DNA of 64,000 bases. Origin: Cupriavidus taiwanensis. GTDB lineage: Bacteria; Pseudomonadota; Gammaproteobacteria; Burkholderiales; Burkholderiaceae. Shown in pieces: positions 136-13,334 of the stretch; positions within the stretch are counted from its first letter, which is position 1, and each line of letters starts with the position of its first letter. The position numbers and the translations under genes are program-made. The stretch covers positions 1,240,001-1,304,000 of the forward strand of contig NZ_LT977070.1 of assembly GCF_900250075.1 (NCBI RefSeq). The letters are read 5' to 3'. Below the pieces are notes generated by a model. The model was not told the DNA's origin. It worked only from the letters and a program-made list of their open reading frames with translations, and ran no database searches.

Positions 136-3087
136 TCAGTGGGCAGGCCCCGCGCGCAGCCGCGCGACGGTGTTCTCCAGGTCCTGCCAGGCGGGTTTGT
201 CGGGCGCAAAGCGCGCACGCAGGTACTGCGCCAGTTGCGCGATCTGCTGGTCGTCGAGCGTGTCGGCATAGGCAGGCATCGCGCCCAGTTCGCTGTTGGG
301 CGGGGCCGGCATGCCGCGCAGCAGCACCTGGATCACGTTGTCCGGCAGCTTGCTGTGCAGGTTGGTATTGAGCGCCAGCGACGGCTTCACGCCGAATTGC
401 GCAATGCCCTGGTCCGACTGATGGCAGACCGCGCAGGCACTCTGGTACAGCCGCTCGGCGGGACCGCCCAGGGTGCGCGCGGCCTGCTGGCTGCGTTGCT
501 CGACCTGCGCCGCCTGCGCGGCCAGCACCGTCGGCGCCGGCGCGGGCGCGCCGAACGAGGCCACGTAATGCGCGATCGCGCGCACGTCGTCCTCGGGCAG
601 TTGCGCGAGCTCTTCCACCACGGGCGCCATCGGTCCCGCCGCCGCGCCGTGGTGCGGCGCATAGCCGCCGCGCAGGTAGGTGAACAGCGCCGCCTCGGTC
701 CACGGCACCGGCGCCTGCGACAGCGCGGTCAGCGCCGGCGCTTCCCAGCCTTCGGCGCTGCCGCCGGTCAGGTAGCGGCGCCCGCCTTGCTCGGCGCCGA
801 GCGCATTGCGCGGCGAATGGCAGGCACTGCAGTGGCCCAGTCCCTCGGCCAGGTACGCGCCGCGATTCCATTGCGCCGAGCGCGACGGGTCCGGCGTAAA
901 GCGTTCATTGCGATGGAACAGCAGGTTCCAGCCGGCCAGCAGCGGCCGCATGTTGAATGGGAAGGCGAGCTGCGTCTGCGGCACCGCGGATGTCACCGGC
1001 TCGGCTGACATCAGGTAGCCGTACAGCGCCTGCATGTCGCCGTCGCTGATTTTGGCGAAGGCGGTGTACGGGAACGCCGGATACAGGCGCCGCCCGTCGC
1101 GGTGGATGCCTTCGCGCATGGCGCGCTCGAACGCGGCGAAGGACCAGTTGCCGATGCCGGTCTGCACATCCGGCGTGATGTTGGTGCTGTAGACCGTGCC
1201 GAAGGGCGTTTCCAGCGGCAGGCCGCCCGCGTTCTTCACGCCGCCCGGCGCGGTATGGCAGACCGCGCAGTCGCCGGCAGCGGCGACCAGCCGGCCGCGC
1301 TCGAGCGTGGCGGCGGAATAGAAGCCGGCCTCGGGCGGCGCCACCGGCGCGATCGGTGCGCGCCACGGCAACAGCGTGGCGCACACGCCGGCAGCGGCGG
1401 CGGCCGCCGCGGCGATCCAGCCGCGCTTCTTGCGTTGGTTGCCGGGACTTGCCTCGGCCAATGCCAGGCGAATGCGTTCGGCGCTGAATGGGGGCTTGCG
1501 CAGGCGCACCCCGGTGGCGTCGAAGATGGCATTGGCCACTGCGGCGGCGGCCGGCAGCGCATCGGTGGGCCCGGCAGCCAGCGCGTCGTGCGTGGCCAGC
1601 GTGCCGGCCAGCCGCACTTCCGGCAGGGCCTGTGCCGGCATGGCCGGCAAGTGTTCGCCGGCAGCACGCGCGTCCGCCGGCCAGGTGTCGAACGCCGGCG
1701 TGGCGGCGGTCAGCTGCAGCGCTGCGGCTGCGACGTCCCGCTCGATCGAGCGCGGCATCGATCGCGTCATCGCGGCGGCTTGCGGTGGCGGCAGCGATTC
1801 GCTGTCGTGGCCAACCGTGACGCGCGTGACCGCCAGCTCGCCGGTGCTGCCGTCGACCTCGACTTCAGCGACCCACGCCGACCAGCTCTGGCCGGCATCG
1901 TGGTCGATGGTGTGGGCGTAGGCAAAGCCGCGGCCGCGCCGCACGTTGCCCGCCGCAGAGCTGCCGCGTGGCGCGGCGGCATTGGCGTCCAGGTCCCAGC
2001 CGGCGCGCTCGGCCACCTGCCGCACCAGCGCGGCGCCGCGCGGGTCGTCCAGATGCGCGAGGCGCAGCGCCACCGGGTCGGCGTCGCTGGCGGCGGCAAG
2101 CTCGTCGAGATGGGATTCGCGCGCGAACACCTGCGCGCGGGCTGCCGTCAGCGGCGCGGCGGCGAATGCCGCCGGGTCGCCGGACACGGCCAGCTCGATA
2201 TGCGGGATGCCATACGGCGGGAGCGCCGCGTCGCCGCCATGGTTCGCATCGATGCGATCGGCCACCGGCGCCGGCGTGTGCGTGAGCCACAGCGCCAGAG
2301 GCGTTGCCGGCGGCGGCGTACCCGCCAGCGTGGCGGTGTAGGCGTCGACGGTGGCGCCGCTGCGCGCAGTCTCGACGCGGATAGCGAGCGCGGCATCGGC
2401 CAGGCCCACCTCGGCGGCGCGCAGCCGGCGCACCACCGGTTGCCCGCTGGCATGCGCCAGCAGCGCCGCGTCGGCGGCGGCGTGCGGCGCCAGCAGCGCG
2501 GGGTCGGCGCGGTCGTCGCGTGCTTGCCAGCAGACCAGTTGTACTTGCGTGGGCGCGATGCCCAGCAGTGCAGCGAGTTCGGCGCGCAGGGCGCCGGGCC
2601 GCGTGGCGGGCAGCCATACGGTCAGCGTGCCGTCGCGCCAGTCGGCGACAACGGTGCAGCAGGCATCGTCGCGGGTGCCTGCCAGTGGCCATTGATAGTG
2701 CTGCGTGTGGGATGCGCGGGCGTGTTCGAGCGCATCTGCGGCATCGCCGCGTTGCGCCACTGTGTGGCGCGGCGCAGGGGTGGCGTCGGCGCGCGGCGGG
2801 CCAGACCAGCGCGCCCGCAGGGCTCGCGCCGCCTCGGCGGCCTGGTCGGAAGAAACCGCGGCCACGCCGGCAAAGTTGTTGCGGACCACCACCGCGCGGA
2901 TGCCGGGCAGCGCCAGCGCGGCGTCGCGCTCGGCGTGCAGCAGGCGCGCCGCGAGCGGCTCGCCGCCGAACCAGCGCAGGCCCGGCGGTGTCAGCACATG
3001 AGCCACCAGGCAATCGGCGCCGTGCGGCGGCAGGCCGGCGGCCAGTGCCGTCGCTTGCGTGGCGGCTTGCACGATTCCCGCGCTCAC
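136..3087 (-). CDS. nicB: Nicotinate dehydrogenase triheme cytochrome c subunit with degenerate molybdopterin domain
   Basis: Predicted 983 residues from a GTG start that overlaps the nicA stop (GTGA). The expected role is to pass electrons from nicotinate hydroxylation to the respiratory chain. The first ~540 residues resemble the hammerhead and second molybdopterin regions of IorB/NicB-type hydroxylases. The usual N-terminal ~200 residues are absent. The usual GxGES motif reads G-P-T, with Pro507 where the catalytic Glu sits. A hydrophobic segment near 548-570 precedes three class I cytochrome c modules with CxxCH at 607, 753 and 885. P. putida NicB fuses an intact molybdopterin part to similar hemes, so this looks like a catalytically dead version kept for electron transfer. 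The intact partner is at 9414-11693. Confidence 0.85.
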   Translation of the reverse strand: MSAGIVQAATQATALAAGLPPHGADCLVAHVLTPPGLRWFGGEPLAARLLHAERDAALALPGIRAVVVRNNFAGVAAVSSDQAAEAARALRARWSGPPRADATPAPRHTVAQRGDAADALEHARASHTQHYQWPLAGTRDDACCTVVADWRDGTLTVWLPATRPGALRAELAALLGIAPTQVQLVCWQARDDRADPALLAPHAAADAALLAHASGQPVVRRLRAAEVGLADAALAIRVETARSGATVDAYTATLAGTPPPATPLALWLTHTPAPVADRIDANHGGDAALPPYGIPHIELAVSGDPAAFAAAPLTAARAQVFARESHLDELAAASDADPVALRLAHLDDPRGAALVRQVAERAGWDLDANAAAPRGSSAAGNVRRGRGFAYAHTIDHDAGQSWSAWVAEVEVDGSTGELAVTRVTVGHDSESLPPPQAAAMTRSMPRSIERDVAAAALQLTAATPAFDTWPADARAAGEHLPAMPAQALPEVRLAGTLATHDALAAGPTDALPAAAAVANAIFDATGVRLRKPPFSAERIRLALAEASPGNQRKKRGWIAAAAAAAAGVCATLLPWRAPIAPVAPPEAGFYSAATLERGRLVAAAGDCAVCHTAPGGVKNAGGLPLETPFGTVYSTNITPDVQTGIGNWSFAAFERAMREGIHRDGRRLYPAFPYTAFAKISDGDMQALYGYLMSAEPVTSAVPQTQLAFPFNMRPLLAGWNLLFHRNERFTPDPSRSAQWNRGAYLAEGLGHCSACHSPRNALGAEQGGRRYLTGGSAEGWEAPALTALSQAPVPWTEAALFTYLRGGYAPHHGAAAGPMAPVVEELAQLPEDDVRAIAHYVASFGAPAPAPTVLAAQAAQVEQRSQQAARTLGGPAERLYQSACAVCHQSDQGIAQFGVKPSLALNTNLHSKLPDNVIQVLLRGMPAPPNSELGAMPAYADTLDDQQIAQLAQYLRARFAPDKPAWQDLENTVARLRAGPAH

Positions 3088-3581
3088 GACGCCGCCCCTT
3101 GCGCGGCCTGCCGCTGCAGCACCGCGGCCCGCCTGACCGCGCGCACGATTTCCACATGCGTGCCGCAACGGCACAGGTTGAAGCGCAAGGCTTCGCGGAT
3201 CTGCGCTTCGTCGGGATCGGGGTTCTGCGCCAGCAGCGCCTTGGCGGTCATGATCATGCCGTTCAGGCAGTAGCCGCATTGCGCGGCCTGTTCTTCGATA
3301 AACGCCTGCTGCACGGGGTCCGGATGCTGTGCCGTGCCCAGGCCCTCGAGCGTGGTCACCGCGTGGCCGACCACGGCCTTGACCGGCAGCACGCATGAAC
3401 GCGCCGGCAGGCCGTCCACCAGCACCGTGCAGGCGCCGCACTGGCCCAGGCCGCAACCGTACTTGGGCCCGTTGCAGCACAGGTCGTTGCGCAGGATGTA
3501 GAGCAGCGGCGTGTCAGGCGCCACGTCCAGCGTGTGCTCGGCGTGGTTGACCTGCAGGGTCAGGGGGCGGGGCGTGTTCAT
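3084..3581 (-). CDS. nicA: Nicotinate dehydrogenase [2Fe-2S] subunit
   Basis: Predicted 165 residues. This small subunit of the nicotinate hydroxylase relays electrons between the molybdenum centre and the cytochrome subunit. The plant-type ferredoxin cluster motif (CGLGQCGAC followed by a fourth Cys) lies in the N-terminal third. The second cluster motif (CGYC and CRCG) follows in the helical C-terminal half. The start at 3581 matches the usual N-terminus of the family; upstream in-frame ATG (3605) and GTG (3608) starts would add up to nine residues. It lies 87 bp downstream of nicC and overlaps the cytochrome subunit by 4 bp, so the three genes are probably one operon. Confidence 0.93.
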   Translation of the reverse strand: MNTPRPLTLQVNHAEHTLDVAPDTPLLYILRNDLCCNGPKYGCGLGQCGACTVLVDGLPARSCVLPVKAVVGHAVTTLEGLGTAQHPDPVQQAFIEEQAAQCGYCLNGMIMTAKALLAQNPDPDEAQIREALRFNLCRCGTHVEIVRAVRRAAVLQRQAAQGAAS

Positions 3582-3668
3582 CGGGGGCTGGGGCGGTTTG
3601 AACATCACGCATCGCAGCGCCGCGCCCCATTCTGGCGAGGGGCGGCGGCGGGCAGGGCGGTCAGGCGA

Positions 3669-6799
<3,131 letters not shown>

Positions 6800-6827
6800 G
6801 CGCTGAATTGATGGATAGGGAGCGAAC

Positions 6828-7907
6828 ATGCCCGTAAGCGATTACGACCTGACGGCAGCGTGGAAGCAGGTGCTGACGCTGTCGAAGCTGCAGCCGGGAC
6901 AGACCGTCACCGTGCTCACCGGCGCCGCCACGCATCCGCAGACGCTGCGCACGGCCATGGTGGCGGCGCAGTCGATGGGCGCCATCGTCAACCGGCTCGA
7001 CCTGCCGCCCGTCAACGGCGAGAAGGCGCTCAGCCGCGATGCGCTGGCCTACCTTGGGACCACGCCGCTGACCGGCAATCCGGCGGCGATCGCCGCGCTC
7101 AAGGCGAGCGACCTGGTGCTGGACCTGATGACGCTGCTGTTCTCGCCCGAGCAGCACGAGATCCTGTCCGGCGGCACCAAGATCCTGCTGGCGGTGGAGC
7201 CGCCGGAAGTGCTGGCGCGGCTGGTGCCGAGCGAGGCCGACCGCGCCCGCGTCAAAGCCGCCACGCAGCGGCTGGGCCGCGCGCGCGAGATGCATATCGT
7301 GTCCGACGCCGGCATGGACCTGCGCTGCCGCCTGGGCGAATTCCCCGCGATCAGCGAGTATGGCTTTGTCGACGAGCCCGGGCGCTGGGACCACTGGCCG
7401 AGCGGCTTCGTGCTGACCTGGCCCGACGAGGGCGGCACCGACGGCACCATCGTGCTGGACCGCGGCGACATCCTGCTGCCGATGAAGTCCTACCTGCAGG
7501 CGCCGATCCGCATCACGGTCGAGGCCGGCTACGTGCGTCGCATCGAAGGCGGCGTCGATGCCGAGCTGCTGGCCGACTACATGGCCTCGTTCAACGATCC
7601 GGAAGCGTATGCCATGTCGCATATCGGCTGGGGCCTGCAGCCGCGCGCGAGCTGGTCGGCGCTGGCGATGTACGACCGCGAGGCCACCATCGGCATGGAC
7701 GCGCGCGCCTACGAGGGCAATTTCCTGTGCTCGTTCGGCCCCAACAATGAAGCAGGCGGCAGCCGCACCACCGCCTGCCATATCGATATTCCCGTGCGCC
7801 ACTGCACCGTCAGCCTCGACGGCGAGCCGGTGGTGGTGCGCGGCAAGGTGATGGACGGGCACCACGCTGCCGCCGCATCGATCTACAAGGATTCGCGCCA
7901 TGGATGA
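6828..7907 (+). CDS. nicX: 2,5-dihydroxypyridine 5,6-dioxygenase
   Basis: Predicted 359 residues. This Fe(II) extradiol-type dioxygenase opens the pyridine ring of 2,5-dihydroxypyridine to give N-formylmaleamate. The iron ligands expected for the family are present as His265 (SHIGWG), His318 and Asp320 (CHID), at the same numbers I recall for P. putida NicX. The family is unrelated to the common cupin or vicinal-oxygen-chelate dioxygenases. GGGAGCGAAC precedes the ATG. The stop overlaps the nicF start by 8 bp, which suggests translational coupling. Confidence 0.95.
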   Translation: MPVSDYDLTAAWKQVLTLSKLQPGQTVTVLTGAATHPQTLRTAMVAAQSMGAIVNRLDLPPVNGEKALSRDALAYLGTTPLTGNPAAIAALKASDLVLDLMTLLFSPEQHEILSGGTKILLAVEPPEVLARLVPSEADRARVKAATQRLGRAREMHIVSDAGMDLRCRLGEFPAISEYGFVDEPGRWDHWPSGFVLTWPDEGGTDGTIVLDRGDILLPMKSYLQAPIRITVEAGYVRRIEGGVDAELLADYMASFNDPEAYAMSHIGWGLQPRASWSALAMYDREATIGMDARAYEGNFLCSFGPNNEAGGSRTTACHIDIPVRHCTVSLDGEPVVVRGKVMDGHHAAAASIYKDSRHG

Positions 7908-8535
7908 CGCAGTGCAGACCTACCAGCGCCAGGGCTTCGGCGCTTCGATGGAGCTCAAGGCGCCTTACGGCCTGCTGATCATCGACTTCGTCAACGGCTT
8001 TGCCGATCCGGCGGTGTTCGGCGGCGGCAATATCCCCGAAGCCATCCGCAACACGCAGCCGCTGCTGCGCGCCGCGCGCGAGCACGGCTGGCCGGTTGCG
8101 CACAGCCGCATCGTGTTCGCCGACGACGACAGCGACCACAACATCTTCACGCTGAAGGTGCCGGGCATGCTGACGCTGAAGGAAGATGGCCACAACAGCC
8201 AGATCGTGCCCGAGCTGGCGCCCGCGGCGGGCGAGCTGGTGGTGCGCAAGACGGTGCCGTCGGCGTTCTTCGGCACCTCGCTGGCGGCATGGCTGACGCA
8301 GCGCGGCGTGCAGACGCTGCTGGTGGCGGGCTGCGTCACCAGCGGCTGCGTGCGCGCCAGCGTGGTCGATGCGATGTCGCTGGGGTTCCGCCCGCTGGTG
8401 GTGTCGGATTGCGTGGGCGACCGCGCGCTCGGGCCGCATGATGCCAACCTGTTCGACATGGCGCAGAAGTACGCCACGGTGCTGACGCGCGACGAGGCGC
8501 TGGCGCAGGTGGCGGGCGTGCGCGCCGCCGCCTGA
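7900..8535 (+). CDS. nicF: Maleamate amidohydrolase
   Basis: Predicted 211 residues. This isochorismatase-fold amidase hydrolyses maleamate to maleate and ammonia, the nitrogen-release step of the pathway. The Asp-Lys-Cys triad can be read as Asp29 (LIIDFVNGF), Lys117 (RKTVPSAF) and Cys150 (TSGCVRAS), the normal positions for the family. It overlaps nicX by 8 bp and is the last gene of the plus-strand operon. The next gene, a TetR regulator, is convergent and ends 27 bp away. Confidence 0.95.
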   Translation: MDDAVQTYQRQGFGASMELKAPYGLLIIDFVNGFADPAVFGGGNIPEAIRNTQPLLRAAREHGWPVAHSRIVFADDDSDHNIFTLKVPGMLTLKEDGHNSQIVPELAPAAGELVVRKTVPSAFFGTSLAAWLTQRGVQTLLVAGCVTSGCVRASVVDAMSLGFRPLVVSDCVGDRALGPHDANLFDMAQKYATVLTRDEALAQVAGVRAAA

Positions 8536-8562
8536 GCCTGAGCGATGGCGCCCGTGCCGGTC

Positions 8563-9318
8563 TCAGCCCGCCGCCGCGCGCCTGGCGCGTGCCGCCTTGC
8601 GCGGCGCGGCGGCGGGTGGCACATGCGCCTCCGGCACGGCGCCGGGCACGGCCACCGTGCGCAGCACGGTCTGCTGGATCACATCGCGCCAGTGCGCCAG
8701 CGCGGGCGGGCTCATCATGGGCTCGCCCAGGAAGGCGCTGAGCGTATGATGGTTGGAGTTATAGAAGTAGCCAAGCGAAGCGATCACCATATACACGTCG
8801 CGCGCGCCTGCGTCCGCGCGGAACAGCCCGGCGGCCTTGCCGCGCGCGAGGATGCCGTCGAGCACCGACAGCGCATAGCTGGAGATCTCGCGCAGCCGCA
8901 CCGACTTCTTCGCATGCTTGCCCTGGCTCATGTTCTCGCTCGTCAGGATGGCGACGAACTCGGGATGGTCCAGGTAGTACTGCCAGACGAAGTCGATCAG
9001 TTGCGACAGCGCGCGCACGGGGTCGGCGGCGTCGAGCTCATGCTCCAGCTGCTGCTCGGCCTGGTTGAGCTGCAGGTAGATGGTCTCCAGCACTTCGACG
9101 AACAGCTTCTCCTTGCTGCCGAAGTAGTAGTAGATCATCCGGTCGTAGGTCTTGGCCAGCGACGAGATGCGTTCGATGCGGCCGCCGTCGTAGCCGCGCT
9201 GGGCGAACACCTTGATGGCGGCTTTGAGGATGCGCTCGCGGCTGTCCTGCGCTTGCCGGGCCCGGGTGCCGGCTGCCGCCCGACGGGTGGCGGGCGCTGC
9301 CGCAGTCTTGGTGGTCAT
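8563..9318 (-). CDS. nicS: TetR-family regulator, NicS-like
   Basis: Predicted 251 residues. The helix-turn-helix domain (about 25-75) includes a TetR signature ending in YYYFGSKEKLFVEV. The rest is an all-helical ligand domain, and the Lys/Arg/Ala-rich tail looks disordered. The gene is divergent from the catalytic nicotinate dehydrogenase subunit at 9414, with a 95-bp gap. In P. putida the TetR protein NicS represses the nicotinate dehydrogenase genes, so by family and position this should control the 9414 gene in response to nicotinate or 6-hydroxynicotinate. The function is inferred; the TetR assignment is firm. Confidence 0.85.
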   Translation of the reverse strand: MTTKTAAAPATRRAAAGTRARQAQDSRERILKAAIKVFAQRGYDGGRIERISSLAKTYDRMIYYYFGSKEKLFVEVLETIYLQLNQAEQQLEHELDAADPVRALSQLIDFVWQYYLDHPEFVAILTSENMSQGKHAKKSVRLREISSYALSVLDGILARGKAAGLFRADAGARDVYMVIASLGYFYNSNHHTLSAFLGEPMMSPPALAHWRDVIQQTVLRTVAVPGAVPEAHVPPAAAPRKAARARRAAAG

Positions 9319-9413
9319 GGTGGGTGTTCTTGCCGTGTGCCTGTTGGCTGGCAGTATAACGTTGACATGCGCGGGGGCCCCGCGCGGCGGCCGATGATGA
9401 AGAGAGTAGAACG
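9319..9413. promoter_or_regulatory. Intergenic region between nicS-like and hydroxylase genes
   Basis: This 95-bp divergent region must contain both promoters. An AT-rich patch at 9353-9368 (AGTATAACGTTGACAT, with AACGTT at its centre) stands out from GC-rich DNA and is the best place for a TetR-type operator. None of the GTGTACAC sites of the nicC/nicE region occur here, so this unit probably answers to a different regulator. Confidence 0.45.
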
Positions 9414-11693
9414 ATGACGGCAACCCAGCTGCAACCCCCGGCGCAGGCCGACGCCGCCACGCCGCGCGCACTGCGCCTGGCGCTGCTGCAGGCCACCGGC
9501 GTGCTGCTGGTGACGCGCGCCCCGCAGCCGGCCGCGCGCCCGGCACCTGGCCAGCCCGGCGCGGCGTCGGACTATGTGCCGGCGCTGCCGGACCTGTTTA
9601 TCGCCGTGCGCGACAGCGGCGAGGTGCTCGCCTTCAACGGCCACGTCGACCTGGGCACCGGCATCCGCACCGCGCTGGCCCAGATCGTCGCCGAAGAACT
9701 CGACGTGCCGCTCGCGCAAGTGCGCATGGTGCTGGGCCATACCGAGGCCACGCCCAACCAGGGCCCGACCATCGCCAGCGCCTCGATCCAGATCTCGGCG
9801 CTGCCGCTGCGCCGCGCGGCGGCACAGGCGCGCGCGTGGCTGCAGGCGCGCGCGGCGCTGCAGCTCGGCGTCGATGCCTCCACGCTGGAAGCGGAGAACG
9901 GCGTATTCCGCGTGCGCGGCACGCAGGCCAGCATCGGTTACGCCGCGCTGGTCGCCGGCGAGCACGTGGAGCTGCCGCTGGCCGACGACGTGCCGGTCAA
10001 GCCGGTCGAGTCCTACCGCATCGTCGGCCGCGCGGCGGCGCGCGTCGATATCCCCGACAAGGCGCGCGGGGCGCTGACCTTCGTCCACGACGTGCGCGTG
10101 CCCGGCATGCTGCACGGCCGCGTGGTGCGCCCGCCGTATGCGGGGCGCGACAGCGGTGCCTTCGTCGGCAACAGCCTGCTCGCCATCGACCGCGATTCGG
10201 TGCGCGACGTGCCTGGCCTGGTCGAGGTGGTGGTGCAGGGCGATTTCGTCGGCGTGGTGGCCGAGCGCGAGGAATATGCGGTGCAGGCCGCGCGCCGGCT
10301 GTGCGTGCGCTGGAAGCCGGTGCCGCCGTTGCCCGCGCTGAACGATCCGGAGCCGGCGCTGCGCGCCAACCCCGCCACGCGGCGCGAGCTGCTGACAGAG
10401 GGCGAGCTGCCCGCCGGCGGCGCCGGCACGGTACTGCAGCGGCGCTACGTGTGGCCGTACCAGATGCACGGCTCCATCGGCCCGTCCTGCGCCGTGGCCG
10501 ACTGGCACGAAGAGGGCCTGACGGTGTGGTCCGGCACGCAGAACCCGCACATGCTGCGCATCGACCTGTCCCGGCTGAGCGGTCTGGGCGAGGACCGCAT
10601 CGAGATCGTGCGCATGGAAGCCGCCGGCTGCTACGGGCGCAATTGCGCCGACGACGTCTGCGCCGACGCGGCGCTGCTGTCGCGCGCCGTGGGGCGGCCG
10701 GTGCGCGTGCAGCTGTCGCGCGAGCAGGAGCACCTGTGGGAGCCCAAGGGCGCGGCGCAACTGATGGATGTCAGCGCCACGCTTGGCGCCGATGGCGCGC
10801 TGCTCGGCTATGACTTCACCAGCCGCTATCCGTCCAACGACGCGCCCACGCTGGCGCTGGTGCTGACCGGCGCCGTGTCCAATGCCCCGCGCACGCTGGA
10901 GATGGGCGACCGCACCGCGGTGCCGCCCTACGCGTATGCCGCGCGCCGCATCGGCTGCGACGACACGCCGGCAATCGTGCGCGCGTCGTGGCTGCGCGGC
11001 GTGTCGGCGCTGCCCAATGCGTTCGCGCACGAGTGCGTGATCGACGAGCTGGCGATGGAGGCTGGCGCCGATCCGGTGGAATTCCGCTTGCGCCACCTGC
11101 CGGATGAACGCGCCGCGGATTTGCTGCGGGCCGTCGCCGATGCGGCCGGCTGGCAGCGCGGCGCAGCCGGAGCGCGCGGCGTGCCGGATGCCGACGGACG
11201 GCTGCGCGGCCGGGGCGTGGCCTATGCGCGCTATATCCACAGCCGTTTTCCCGGCTTCGGCGCGGCCTGGGCCGCGTGGGTGGTGGACCTGTCCGTGGAC
11301 GCGGGCACCGGCCACATCGCCATCGACAAGGTGGTGGTGGGGCAGGACACCGGCATGGTCGTCAATCCCGACGGCGTGCGCCACCAGGTCCACGGCAATG
11401 TGGTGCAGACCCTCAGCCGCGTGCTGAAGGAGCAGGTCCGCTTCGATGCCGACGGCGTCGCCAGCCGCGAGTGGGGCAGCTATCCGCTGCTGACCTTCCC
11501 GGAAATCCCGCCGATCGAGGTGTTGCTGATGCCGCGCCAGTCAGAGCCGCCGCTGGGCGCGGGCGAATCCGCCTCGCTGCCGGGCGCGCCGGCGATCGCC
11601 AACGCGCTGTTCGATGCGCTGGGGGTGCGCCTGCGCCGGCCGCCATTCGTGCCGGAGACAGTGCTGGCGGCGATGGCCGCAACCAAAGGCTGA
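9414..11693 (+). CDS. Nicotinate dehydrogenase catalytic molybdopterin subunit (IorB-type)
   Basis: Predicted 759 residues. This should be the catalytic subunit that hydroxylates nicotinate at C6. It has the permuted layout of isoquinoline 1-oxidoreductase large subunits. A molybdopterin segment with HVDLGTGIRTALAQIVAEE comes near residues 80-100, the hammerhead domain at about 220-310, and a second molybdopterin region ending with GAGES. Glu718 is the expected catalytic base. No heme motif or signal peptide is present, so it needs NicA and the triheme protein for electron transfer. The separation from nicA and the partial homology with the 136-3087 protein suggest duplication and subfunctionalisation. 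Nicotinate as substrate is inferred from context. Confidence 0.85.
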   Translation: MTATQLQPPAQADAATPRALRLALLQATGVLLVTRAPQPAARPAPGQPGAASDYVPALPDLFIAVRDSGEVLAFNGHVDLGTGIRTALAQIVAEELDVPLAQVRMVLGHTEATPNQGPTIASASIQISALPLRRAAAQARAWLQARAALQLGVDASTLEAENGVFRVRGTQASIGYAALVAGEHVELPLADDVPVKPVESYRIVGRAAARVDIPDKARGALTFVHDVRVPGMLHGRVVRPPYAGRDSGAFVGNSLLAIDRDSVRDVPGLVEVVVQGDFVGVVAEREEYAVQAARRLCVRWKPVPPLPALNDPEPALRANPATRRELLTEGELPAGGAGTVLQRRYVWPYQMHGSIGPSCAVADWHEEGLTVWSGTQNPHMLRIDLSRLSGLGEDRIEIVRMEAAGCYGRNCADDVCADAALLSRAVGRPVRVQLSREQEHLWEPKGAAQLMDVSATLGADGALLGYDFTSRYPSNDAPTLALVLTGAVSNAPRTLEMGDRTAVPPYAYAARRIGCDDTPAIVRASWLRGVSALPNAFAHECVIDELAMEAGADPVEFRLRHLPDERAADLLRAVADAAGWQRGAAGARGVPDADGRLRGRGVAYARYIHSRFPGFGAAWAAWVVDLSVDAGTGHIAIDKVVVGQDTGMVVNPDGVRHQVHGNVVQTLSRVLKEQVRFDADGVASREWGSYPLLTFPEIPPIEVLLMPRQSEPPLGAGESASLPGAPAIANALFDALGVRLRRPPFVPETVLAAMAATKG

Positions 11694-11764: not shown

Positions 11765-12241
11765 CTAGCCGCCATTCCCCTCGTCGATCTCGCTCATCTT
11801 GCGCAGCAGGTAAGTCACGGCCACGCGCTCGGCCGGATTCAGGCTGCCGAAGGTCTGCTCCGAAATCTCCTTCGCGAACGGCACGGTCTCGTCGATCAGC
11901 GCCAGCCCGGCGGGCGTGACCGTCACCACCACCTTGCGCCGGTCGTTGGGATCATGCGAGACCGCGATCAGCTTGCGCGACTTGAGCCGGTCGATGATGC
12001 CGCGCACCGTGGCCTGGTCGATCGCGGTCGCGCGCACCACCTCGTTCATCGAACACGGCTGCCGGTCGCGCACCGCGCACAGCACCACGAACTGCGCCGC
12101 GGTCAGCTGCGAATCGGGGATGGTCTGCTGGAAGATCGCCACATGGCGCTGGTAGGCGCGCCGCAGCAGATGGCCCACCTGCTCGGTGAAGTCATAGTCG
12201 GCGGCGGGCTTGCCGGAAGGCGTGTCGGCGGGCTGGGGCAC
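11765..12241 (-). CDS. nicR: MarR-family regulator, NicR-like
   Basis: Predicted 158 residues from a GTG start. The winged helix-turn-helix (about 55-120) carries the MarR pattern ending in DRRKVVVTVTPAG. The DFTEQVGHLLRRAYQRH and FGSLNPAERVAVTYLLRKM segments closely resemble Pseudomonas NicR as I remember it. NicR represses the lower nicotinate pathway and is released by 6-hydroxynicotinate. Here it should act on the nicC/nicE control region. The start was chosen by length; the frame extends further upstream but looks non-coding there. A CGAGTATACCGAGG element at 12271-12284 upstream could be an autoregulatory site, but this is weak. Confidence 0.85.
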   Translation of the reverse strand: MPQPADTPSGKPAADYDFTEQVGHLLRRAYQRHVAIFQQTIPDSQLTAAQFVVLCAVRDRQPCSMNEVVRATAIDQATVRGIIDRLKSRKLIAVSHDPNDRRKVVVTVTPAGLALIDETVPFAKEISEQTFGSLNPAERVAVTYLLRKMSEIDEGNGG

Positions 12242-12407
12242 GAAGCAGGCGCGGTGGCTGAAGGTGACCCCGAGTATACCGAGGAAGGGCCCGGAACAGG
12301 GCAGCCGCCGGCCGGGGCGGCGTCCGATGCCCTCGCGGCTTTTCGAATACAATCGTCGGGTCGTTTCGCGGGGCCGCCGTGCCGGCCCGCTTTCCCCCGT
12401 ATCCCTC

Positions 12408-13334
12408 GTGCCCGCCTCCCAGAAGTCTCTCGCCGTGCCCGCCGCGCTGCCCTCGCCGCAGCGCTCGGGTCTTGTCATCGCCGCCGTGGGCGCGGTGCTG
12501 TTCTCGGCCAAGGCCATCGTCGCCAAGCTGATGTACCGCTACAACGTCGATGCGGTGATGGTGATCACGCTGCGCATGCTGTTCGCGGTGCCGCTGTTCA
12601 TGGCCATCGGCTGGTGGCAGTCGCGCCGGCTGGCGCCGCTGTCGTGGGCGGACCGGGGCCGGGTGGTGTTCCTCGGCTTTATCGGCTACTACCTGTCCAG
12701 CTTCCTTGACTTCATCGGCCTGCAGTACATCACTGCCGGGCTGGAGCGGCTGATCCTGTTCCTGACGCCGTCGTTCGTGCTGCTGGTCACCGCGCTGGTA
12801 TTCCGGCGGCCCATCGGCACGCGCCAGTGGATGTCGCTGCTGCTGGCCTATGCCGGCATCGTGCTGGTGTTCGCGCATGACCTCGATGTCAGCGGCAGCC
12901 AGGTGTGGCTGGGCGGCGCGCTGGTGCTGGGCAGCGCCATCACCTATGGTATCTACCTGATCCTGAGCGGCGAGCTGGTGCGGCGCATCGGCTCGCTGCG
13001 GCTGGTGGCTTATGCCATGTGCGTGTCGACCGCCTGCTGCGTGATCCAGTACCTGGTGCTGGGCCGGCCCGTGGCGGAGCTGGCGCAGCCGGCGCCGGTG
13101 ATGTGGCTGTCGCTCGTCAACGCGGTGTTCTGCACCGTGCTGCCGGTGTCGCTGACCATGGTGGCGGTGTCTCGCATCGGCGCACCGATGGCATCGCAGG
13201 CCGGCATGATCGGGCCGGTGTCGACGCTGTTGCTGGCCTTCTGGCTGCTCGGCGAGCCCGTCAGCGGCGTGCAGCTGGCCGGCAGCGCACTTGTGATGGG
13301 CGGCATGTACTTGCTGTCGGCAAGGAAAAACTGA
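12408..13334 (+). CDS. EamA/DMT-family permease
   Basis: Predicted 308 residues with about ten hydrophobic segments in two EamA repeats, an inner-membrane drug/metabolite transporter fold. The substrate cannot be read from sequence. It is divergent from the nicR-like gene, so uptake of nicotinate or export of a pathway intermediate is possible but unproven. The start is uncertain: GTG 12408 follows a TACAAT element at 12350-12355, while ATG 12327 would add 27 residues of poor coding character. It lies 57 bp upstream of the SDR gene. Confidence 0.8.
   Translation: MPASQKSLAVPAALPSPQRSGLVIAAVGAVLFSAKAIVAKLMYRYNVDAVMVITLRMLFAVPLFMAIGWWQSRRLAPLSWADRGRVVFLGFIGYYLSSFLDFIGLQYITAGLERLILFLTPSFVLLVTALVFRRPIGTRQWMSLLLAYAGIVLVFAHDLDVSGSQVWLGGALVLGSAITYGIYLILSGELVRRIGSLRLVAYAMCVSTACCVIQYLVLGRPVAELAQPAPVMWLSLVNAVFCTVLPVSLTMVAVSRIGAPMASQAGMIGPVSTLLLAFWLLGEPVSGVQLAGSALVMGGMYLLSARKN

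Follow-up and report, generated by a model that had tools for sequence, protein, structure and literature searches.

A probable split nicotinate dehydrogenase of Cupriavidus taiwanensis with a triheme subunit that carries a molybdopterin domain lacking the cofactor motifs

In nicotinate dehydrogenases of the Pseudomonas putida type, a live molybdenum domain and the hemes are joined in the single chain NicB, unlike in the three-component form with NicA, NicB1, and NicB2, which is described for Bordetella, Burkholderia gladioli, Delftia, and Alcaligenes faecalis. A tripartite enzyme is reported to have been observed in Burkholderia gladioli and Bordetella (PMC10269826). The Delftia cluster is ordered nicB2-nicA-nicC-nicE-nicD-nicX-nicF-nicB1, whereby nicB1 is named an aldehyde dehydrogenase (PMC4572682), and the three-component hydroxylase of Alcaligenes faecalis JQ135, described as proved with reference to Zhang 2018, appears under the phrase “two molybdenum-containing subunit” (PMC6403243). 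Here we analyzed a window of 64,000 nucleotides from Cupriavidus taiwanensis (contig NZ_LT977070.1, positions 1,240,001 to 1,304,000), in which a nicotinate degradation cluster spans bases 136 to about 11700. The cluster holds the same three genes as these systems, in a gene order identical to that of Delftia, and the three-gene make-up as such is already in print (PMC10269826, PMC4572682, PMC6403243). The published descriptions speak of a tripartite enzyme or of two molybdenum-containing subunits, whereas NicB2 is found here to be without the cofactor motifs. In the accessible text of seven accounts (PMC10269826, PMC4572682, PMC10331938, PMC6403243, PMC6837509, PMC10142695, PMC6460240; subscription literature lies outside this scope), we found no statement that NicB2 is inactive. 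The three subunit genes and their features are located in the window as follows.

136..3087, minus strand: nicB2, triheme subunit with a dead molybdopterin domain, 983 aa
1453..3030, minus strand: dead molybdopterin domain of NicB2, residues about 20-545, assigned by alignment, residue losses, and predicted fold
1567..1569, minus strand: Pro507 codon of NicB2, at the position of the catalytic Glu718 of NicB1 by alignment
1372..1416, minus strand: predicted membrane helix of NicB2, residues 558-572, between dead domain and hemes (model confidence low)
139..1320, minus strand: triheme cytochrome c domain of NicB2, residues 590-983
1255..1269, minus strand: heme motif 1 (CxxCH), NicB2 residue 607
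817..831, minus strand: heme motif 2 (CxxCH), NicB2 residue 753
421..435, minus strand: heme motif 3 (CxxCH), NicB2 residue 885
3084..3608, minus strand: nicA, subunit with two [2Fe-2S] clusters (Fer2 and Fer2_2)
9414..11693, plus strand: nicB1, intact molybdopterin subunit, 759 aa
10626..10643, plus strand: GCYGRN cofactor loop of NicB1, residues 405-410
11565..11567, plus strand: catalytic Glu718 codon of NicB1 (GAGES loop)

Read from its N-terminus, NicB2 is composed of a region homologous to the large subunits of molybdenum hydroxylases, a membrane helix, and a triheme cytochrome. Pfam searches yielded for its first part only a MoCoBD_1 fragment (residues 108-185, 24 bits, below the 27-bit cut-off) together with weaker sub-threshold matches, and for its last part two cytochrome c families above the cut-off; NicB1 gave two MoCoBD_2 stretches and a nearly full MoCoBD_1. 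The likeness of the two proteins is not due to chance, since a tblastn search with NicB2 against its own genome matched NicB1 with 35% identity (query 32-591, E 1.2e-52; the query carried three additional residues ahead of the triheme protein, and the tail of the match extends beyond the NicB1 stop). In the alignment, homology begins at about residue 21 of NicB2 and only at about residue 230 of NicB1. Thus, NicB2 is without the N-terminal cofactor part of NicB1, which covers one of the MoCoBD_2 stretches (residues 63-201). The initial annotation had claimed this absence, and it had also given NicB2 a hammerhead region. The Pfam hammerhead model matched neither protein, and therefore that label rests on alignment and fold.

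The alignment agrees with the annotated site losses: Glu718 in the GAGES loop of NicB1 aligns with Pro507 of NicB2, and the GCYGRN loop is replaced. Accordingly, a check of the 136-3087 protein for an intact glutamate and cofactor loop found neither. The catalytic glutamate near the C-terminus that characterizes large subunits of the xanthine oxidase family is thereby absent from NicB2, while the large-subunit fold is predicted to be there. The FDA.GVRLR.PPF stretch, which had been noticed as common to both proteins, is present and belongs to those parts of the dead domain that are preserved best. NicB1 keeps Glu718 and the GCYGRN loop, as expected of a separate molybdenum subunit and in agreement with the assignment of the live catalytic domain to the gene at 9414. 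Neither protein is a fused NicB of the P. putida type, as NicB2 has no cofactor motifs and NicB1 no hemes. NicB2 carries three c-type heme motifs and adjoins nicA, whereby the GTG start of nicB2 (3087) and the nicA stop overlap by 4 bases. NicA shows Fer2 and Fer2_2 domains with ten cysteines, matching a protein with two [2Fe-2S] clusters. At the level of the sequences, these comparisons confirm that the NicB2 domain is without a cofactor site and that NicB1 carries an intact one. Among the positions conserved to at least 90% in 45 live rows, 101 are retained in at most 20% of 15 NicB2 rows and count as lost, and 65 are retained in at least 80% and count as kept; 6 of the 21 NicB2 rows had been dropped because of their closeness to others (five Cupriavidus, one Alcaligenes). 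According to the known structures of the family, the lost residues presumably belong to the pterin and active site. A new conserved residue occurs at only 6 positions of the dead domain.

In the proteins searched, loss of both motifs is general to this enzyme type and no isolated decay. The glutamate loop and the GCYG loop were each found in 0 of 55 NicB2 proteins of 880-1160 aa, all of which have three heme motifs; the 55 were drawn by length from 91 proteins, excluding P0077 and P0086, with 25 classed as fused and 11 others set aside. All 25 fused NicBs from the same search keep the GCYG loop, the glutamate loop, and the hemes. Among the best 120 of 7985 NicB1 matches, the GCYG loop is present in every one and the glutamate pattern in 113, the other 7 reading GESASVCG. 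In named loci, the dead form occurs in 17 of 80, which is no natural frequency because these loci were taken as the best 80 from among 558 relatives. A NicB1-type gene lies within 10 kb in all 17, those of L047 and L086 being cut by the locus end. The 17 loci come from Cupriavidus (7), Vreelandella/Halomonas (3), Alcaligenes (2), Bordetella (2), Herbaspirillum (1), Pusillimonas (1), and an Oxalobacteraceae genome (1). The other 63 hold a live fused NicB with GCYGxN (63/63) and the glutamate loop (62 by pattern, L074 on second look) in one chain with the hemes, so the contrast drawn earlier with the one-protein NicB holds. No close NicB1 was found in any of these 63, where loci such as L039, L056, L062, L079, and L088 end within 10 kb on one side and a NicB1 may escape notice.

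In 60 Cupriavidus genomes, both genes were found in 40 and neither in 18 (the E limits for the two genes differ, 1e-150 and 1e-200, and the 41 triheme matches are counted by similarity, not by lost motifs). The exceptions, G197 with only the triheme gene and G201 with only nicB1, concern short contigs of 5011 and 3193 bases, and the triheme match of G185 stops exactly at the contig end. An order-wide sample of 150 genomes gave five triheme matches at E 1e-120, one of them in the genome of the window itself. The others are the dead-split G119 and G133, the fused G102, and the clean-split G093; 21 of the 150 matched NicB1 at this limit, mostly with 39-43% identity. The order-wide search added two more dead-form pairs, L095 and L096. 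Among the matches listed, the closest named triheme relative (98% identity) belongs to C. taiwanensis. Of 314 records from a plasmid search, not one reached 80% coverage of the query. The three Halomonadaceae dead-form loci (L047, L086, L090: Vreelandella, Halomonas) differ in gene order. The remaining 14 dead-form loci belong to Burkholderiales-type genera, and the system in Halomonadaceae could stem from transfer or be of old origin. The protein P0086, a 1010-aa relative annotated with Fer2_2 that matches only 34% of NicB2, is possibly a NicA-NicB2 fusion.

The trees on the origin of the split include 25 of the 63 fused loci and every one of the 17 split loci. The shared molybdenum domain gave a tree in which the 21 NicB2 rows all fall into one group (Shimodaira-Hasegawa-like approximate likelihood ratio test, SH-aLRT, 99), separate from every live fused and NicB1 row, with a program warning of long branches meeting at this group. 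The sequences of the dead domain vary widely between genera, and end branches reach 2.0 changes per column. In trees of the live domain, NicB1 joins two Paraburkholderia fused NicBs (SH-aLRT 99 in two trees), and NicB1 as a single clade is weak, with a support of 87 in one tree and 32 in the other. The heme tree showed NicB2 as one clade at 75/29 before L096 was added; with L096, two changes are needed and the clade appears in 4% of 200 bootstrap trees. The approximately unbiased (AU) test on the hemes rejects neither a single NicB2 clade (p 0.351) nor a grouping of NicB2 with the Paraburkholderia fused proteins (p 0.288). With phmmer, the dead domain of the window reached at best 224 bits against fused NicBs and 197 bits against NicB1, and fused NicBs are homologous over the full length of NicB2 with about 40-45% identity. 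Because of the tree results and these scores, the view that NicB2 is a degenerate fused NicB is well supported. The old duplication proposed in the initial annotation holds insofar as the tblastn match supports a common origin of NicB1 and dead domain; a clade of these two apart from fused NicB is neither established nor rejected (AU p 0.457).

The ratio of nonsynonymous to synonymous substitution rates (dN/dS) of the dead domain amounts to 0.19-0.41 and is below 1 in 7 of 7 pairs, indicating purifying selection (Nei-Gojobori count, whereby the farther pairs are near saturation). By this measure, the last 40 residues of the domain are constrained about as strongly as the hemes. In a model of NicB2 with a predicted template modeling score (pTM) of 0.61, the large-subunit fold is predicted to be retained over most of the dead domain. 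As the pTM is only at this level, the placement of the hemes relative to the dead domain was not used.

Taken together, we consider it probable that NicA, NicB1, and NicB2 form a three-chain nicotinate dehydrogenase, in which the remnant domain of NicB2 seats NicA-NicB1 against the heme subunit, probably as a pseudo-dimer. The computed basis of this reading is the gene set, the site loss, the predicted fold, the selection, and the close partnership of the genes; the complex itself and docking as the retained role are what we infer. NicA would contribute two [2Fe-2S] clusters, NicB1 alone of the three chains would hold a molybdenum site, and NicB2 would be a triheme cytochrome c behind one membrane helix. 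By analogy to the known P. putida enzyme, NicB1 would hydroxylate nicotinate to 6-hydroxynicotinate, and the electrons would pass from NicB1 via NicA to the hemes of NicB2 and on to respiration. The N-terminal domain of NicB2, as a putative remnant of the molybdenum domain of a fused NicB with its cofactor site lost and most of its fold kept, would most likely hold NicA-NicB1 near the hemes, probably in place of a second molybdenum subunit. Enzymes of the xanthine oxidase family commonly form homodimers through a shared interface. A more specific and tentative proposal, which we regard as rather unlikely in this precise form, is that the dead domain acts as a pseudo-protomer pairing with NicB1 through this interface, in an asymmetric enzyme with one active site at the cytoplasmic membrane face and the hemes on the far side. 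If true, this would be a new architecture in the enzyme family and would raise the question of how electrons cross the membrane. The published description needs correction, since one of the “two molybdenum-containing subunits” has no motifs to hold and use molybdenum. The locus also gives a clear example from nature of a fusion protein whose two functions are split over two genes with the disabled domain still under selection, and fused, dead-split, and clean-split relatives are available for comparison.

The clean-split relatives are two Burkholderiales loci.

5971-10267 of G093:C1:3231000-3248000: clean-split relative L093
7674-11967 of G133:C26: clean-split relative L094

In both, NicA-like, NicB1-like, and triheme genes stand in a row and are 47-55% identical to the window proteins; the molybdenum subunit is intact, and the triheme open frames of 449 and 523 aa are without a dead domain. 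No other nic gene homologs were found in the 17-18 kb stretches that hold them. The genome G133 carries both the clean-split and the dead-domain type. The membrane-bound aldehyde dehydrogenase of Gluconobacter oxydans (8gy3) is the best solved sequence match to NicB1, and its cytochrome is the best solved match to the heme part of NicB2 by sequence and by fold (Foldseek; structural alignments cover the chains ranked by it). Unlike NicB2, this cytochrome chain of 444 aa is without a dead domain, and the 8gy3 large subunit begins with an RRNFL motif, which NicB1 does not have. This enzyme also has an Fe-S small subunit.

Concerning the membrane sides, RKKR precedes the predicted helix of NicB2, and more Lys/Arg residues stand before the helix than after it in 19/19 NicB2, 50/63 fused (13 equal), and 2/2 clean-split proteins. 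By the positive-inside rule, the N-terminal domain would therefore be cytoplasmic and the hemes outside, and the dead domain would be a cytoplasmic dock if this topology is right. Generally, c-type hemes are attached outside the cytoplasm. A strict twin-arginine pattern (RRxF[LIMVA]) upstream of the molybdenum domain was found in 0/20 NicB1, 1/63 fused, 0/2 clean-split, and 2/4 outgroup proteins, in frames read from stop to stop, in which true starts are not fixed. The clean-split molybdenum subunits read RRQLLK and RRNLLK, which we took by eye as a twin-arginine motif. The system shares with the membrane-bound aldehyde dehydrogenase type the triheme cytochrome with a membrane helix but not, by the strict pattern, a molybdenum subunit with a twin-arginine export motif. 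Molybdenum and heme parts thus appear to lie on opposite membrane sides, in most fused NicB, too.

Several points weigh against a docking role of the dead domain. The dN/dS of the domain exceeds that of the adjoining hemes by a factor of 1.6 to 5.4, which would fit slow decay as well. The prediction is poor at residues about 431-510 of NicB2 (block means 32-78), where the catalytic loop would be expected. Of the 51 rows that underlie the model, 16 belong to live fused proteins and may bias it to the ancestral fold. In the 70-row alignment, 6 of 21 NicB2 rows have a glutamate in the column of the lost one or up to 3 columns away, none of them in a GE[ST] loop: L047 is the sole row with it in the column, and L086, L090, L053, L064, and P0072 have it two or three columns on. 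The clean-split loci and 8gy3 manage without a dead domain, so it is not required for splitting. If the topology deduced from the charges is right, hemes and molybdenum domain lie on opposite membrane sides, and the electron path from NicA to the hemes is unexplained, as it is for fused NicB.

It might be that the dead domain is an evolutionary leftover without a role of its own, kept because it is translated ahead of helix and hemes and its deletion would harm translation coupling or export. The elevated dN/dS, which exceeds not only that of the hemes but in 6/7 pairs also that of either part of NicB1, and the wide sequence variation between genera speak for this explanation. We nevertheless regard it as unlikely, as dN/dS stays well below 1 in every pair with about heme-level constraint at the end of the domain, most of the fold is predicted to be intact, and the domain is retained in 17/17 dead-form loci and in 55/55 NicB2, although the length selection would miss shorter forms. 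Predicted fold and purifying selection are equally compatible with a domain that binds substrate, a cofactor intermediate, or a molybdenum cofactor chaperone, or that regulates the enzyme, rather than docking. The loss of 101 conserved live positions, glutamate and GCYGRN loop included, speaks against such functions, and with just 6 positions newly conserved there is no visible signature of a new pocket; we regard this explanation as improbable, somewhat more so than a leftover.

We regard it as very improbable that NicB2 is a second, functional molybdenum subunit, which the wording for Alcaligenes faecalis JQ135 implies (PMC6403243). Both Alcaligenes proteins do have a glutamate three columns from the lost one, but these NicB2 (L053 and L064) are without GCYG and GE[ST] loops, neither motif occurs in any of the 55 NicB2, and the N-terminal cofactor part is absent. 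An assembly or annotation error that split one fused NicB into two genes is hardly credible: we found no evidence supporting it, the same gene pair recurs in 17/80 named loci of several genera and in 40/60 congeneric genomes, the homologous stretches of the two molybdenum domains overlap, with 35% identity, and other pathway genes lie between the two genes over 6 kb. Docking in a three-chain enzyme is the reading that we prefer.

The remaining genes of the cluster and its flank are the following.

3669..4829, minus strand: nicC-type FAD monooxygenase, start inferred
5190..5957, plus strand: nicE-type maleate isomerase, start inferred
5969..6799, plus strand: nicD-type hydrolase
6828..7907, plus strand: nicX-type ring-cleavage dioxygenase, no NCBIfam match
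7900..8535, plus strand: nicF-type amidohydrolase
8563 to about 9318, minus strand: TetR regulator (TetR_N and TetR_C_29), between nicF and nicB1
11768-12304, minus strand: MarR-family regulator, flanking the cluster
12312-13334, plus strand: EamA-family transporter, flanking the cluster

The names nicC to nicF follow the cluster order published for Delftia and family matches (none for nicX). Homologs of nicC, nicE, nicD, nicX, and nicF occupy the stretch between nicB2/nicA and nicB1, as expected of a nicotinate cluster, and Pseudomonas loci with a fused NicB likewise have other nic genes alongside. Relatives of the TetR protein (50-55% identity) adjoin fused nicB in Pseudomonas loci. In P. 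putida, NicS is named as the repressor of nicAB (PMC10269826). One may guess that the TetR protein of the window is the NicS counterpart and, just as speculatively, that the MarR-family regulator is the counterpart of NicR/BpsR.
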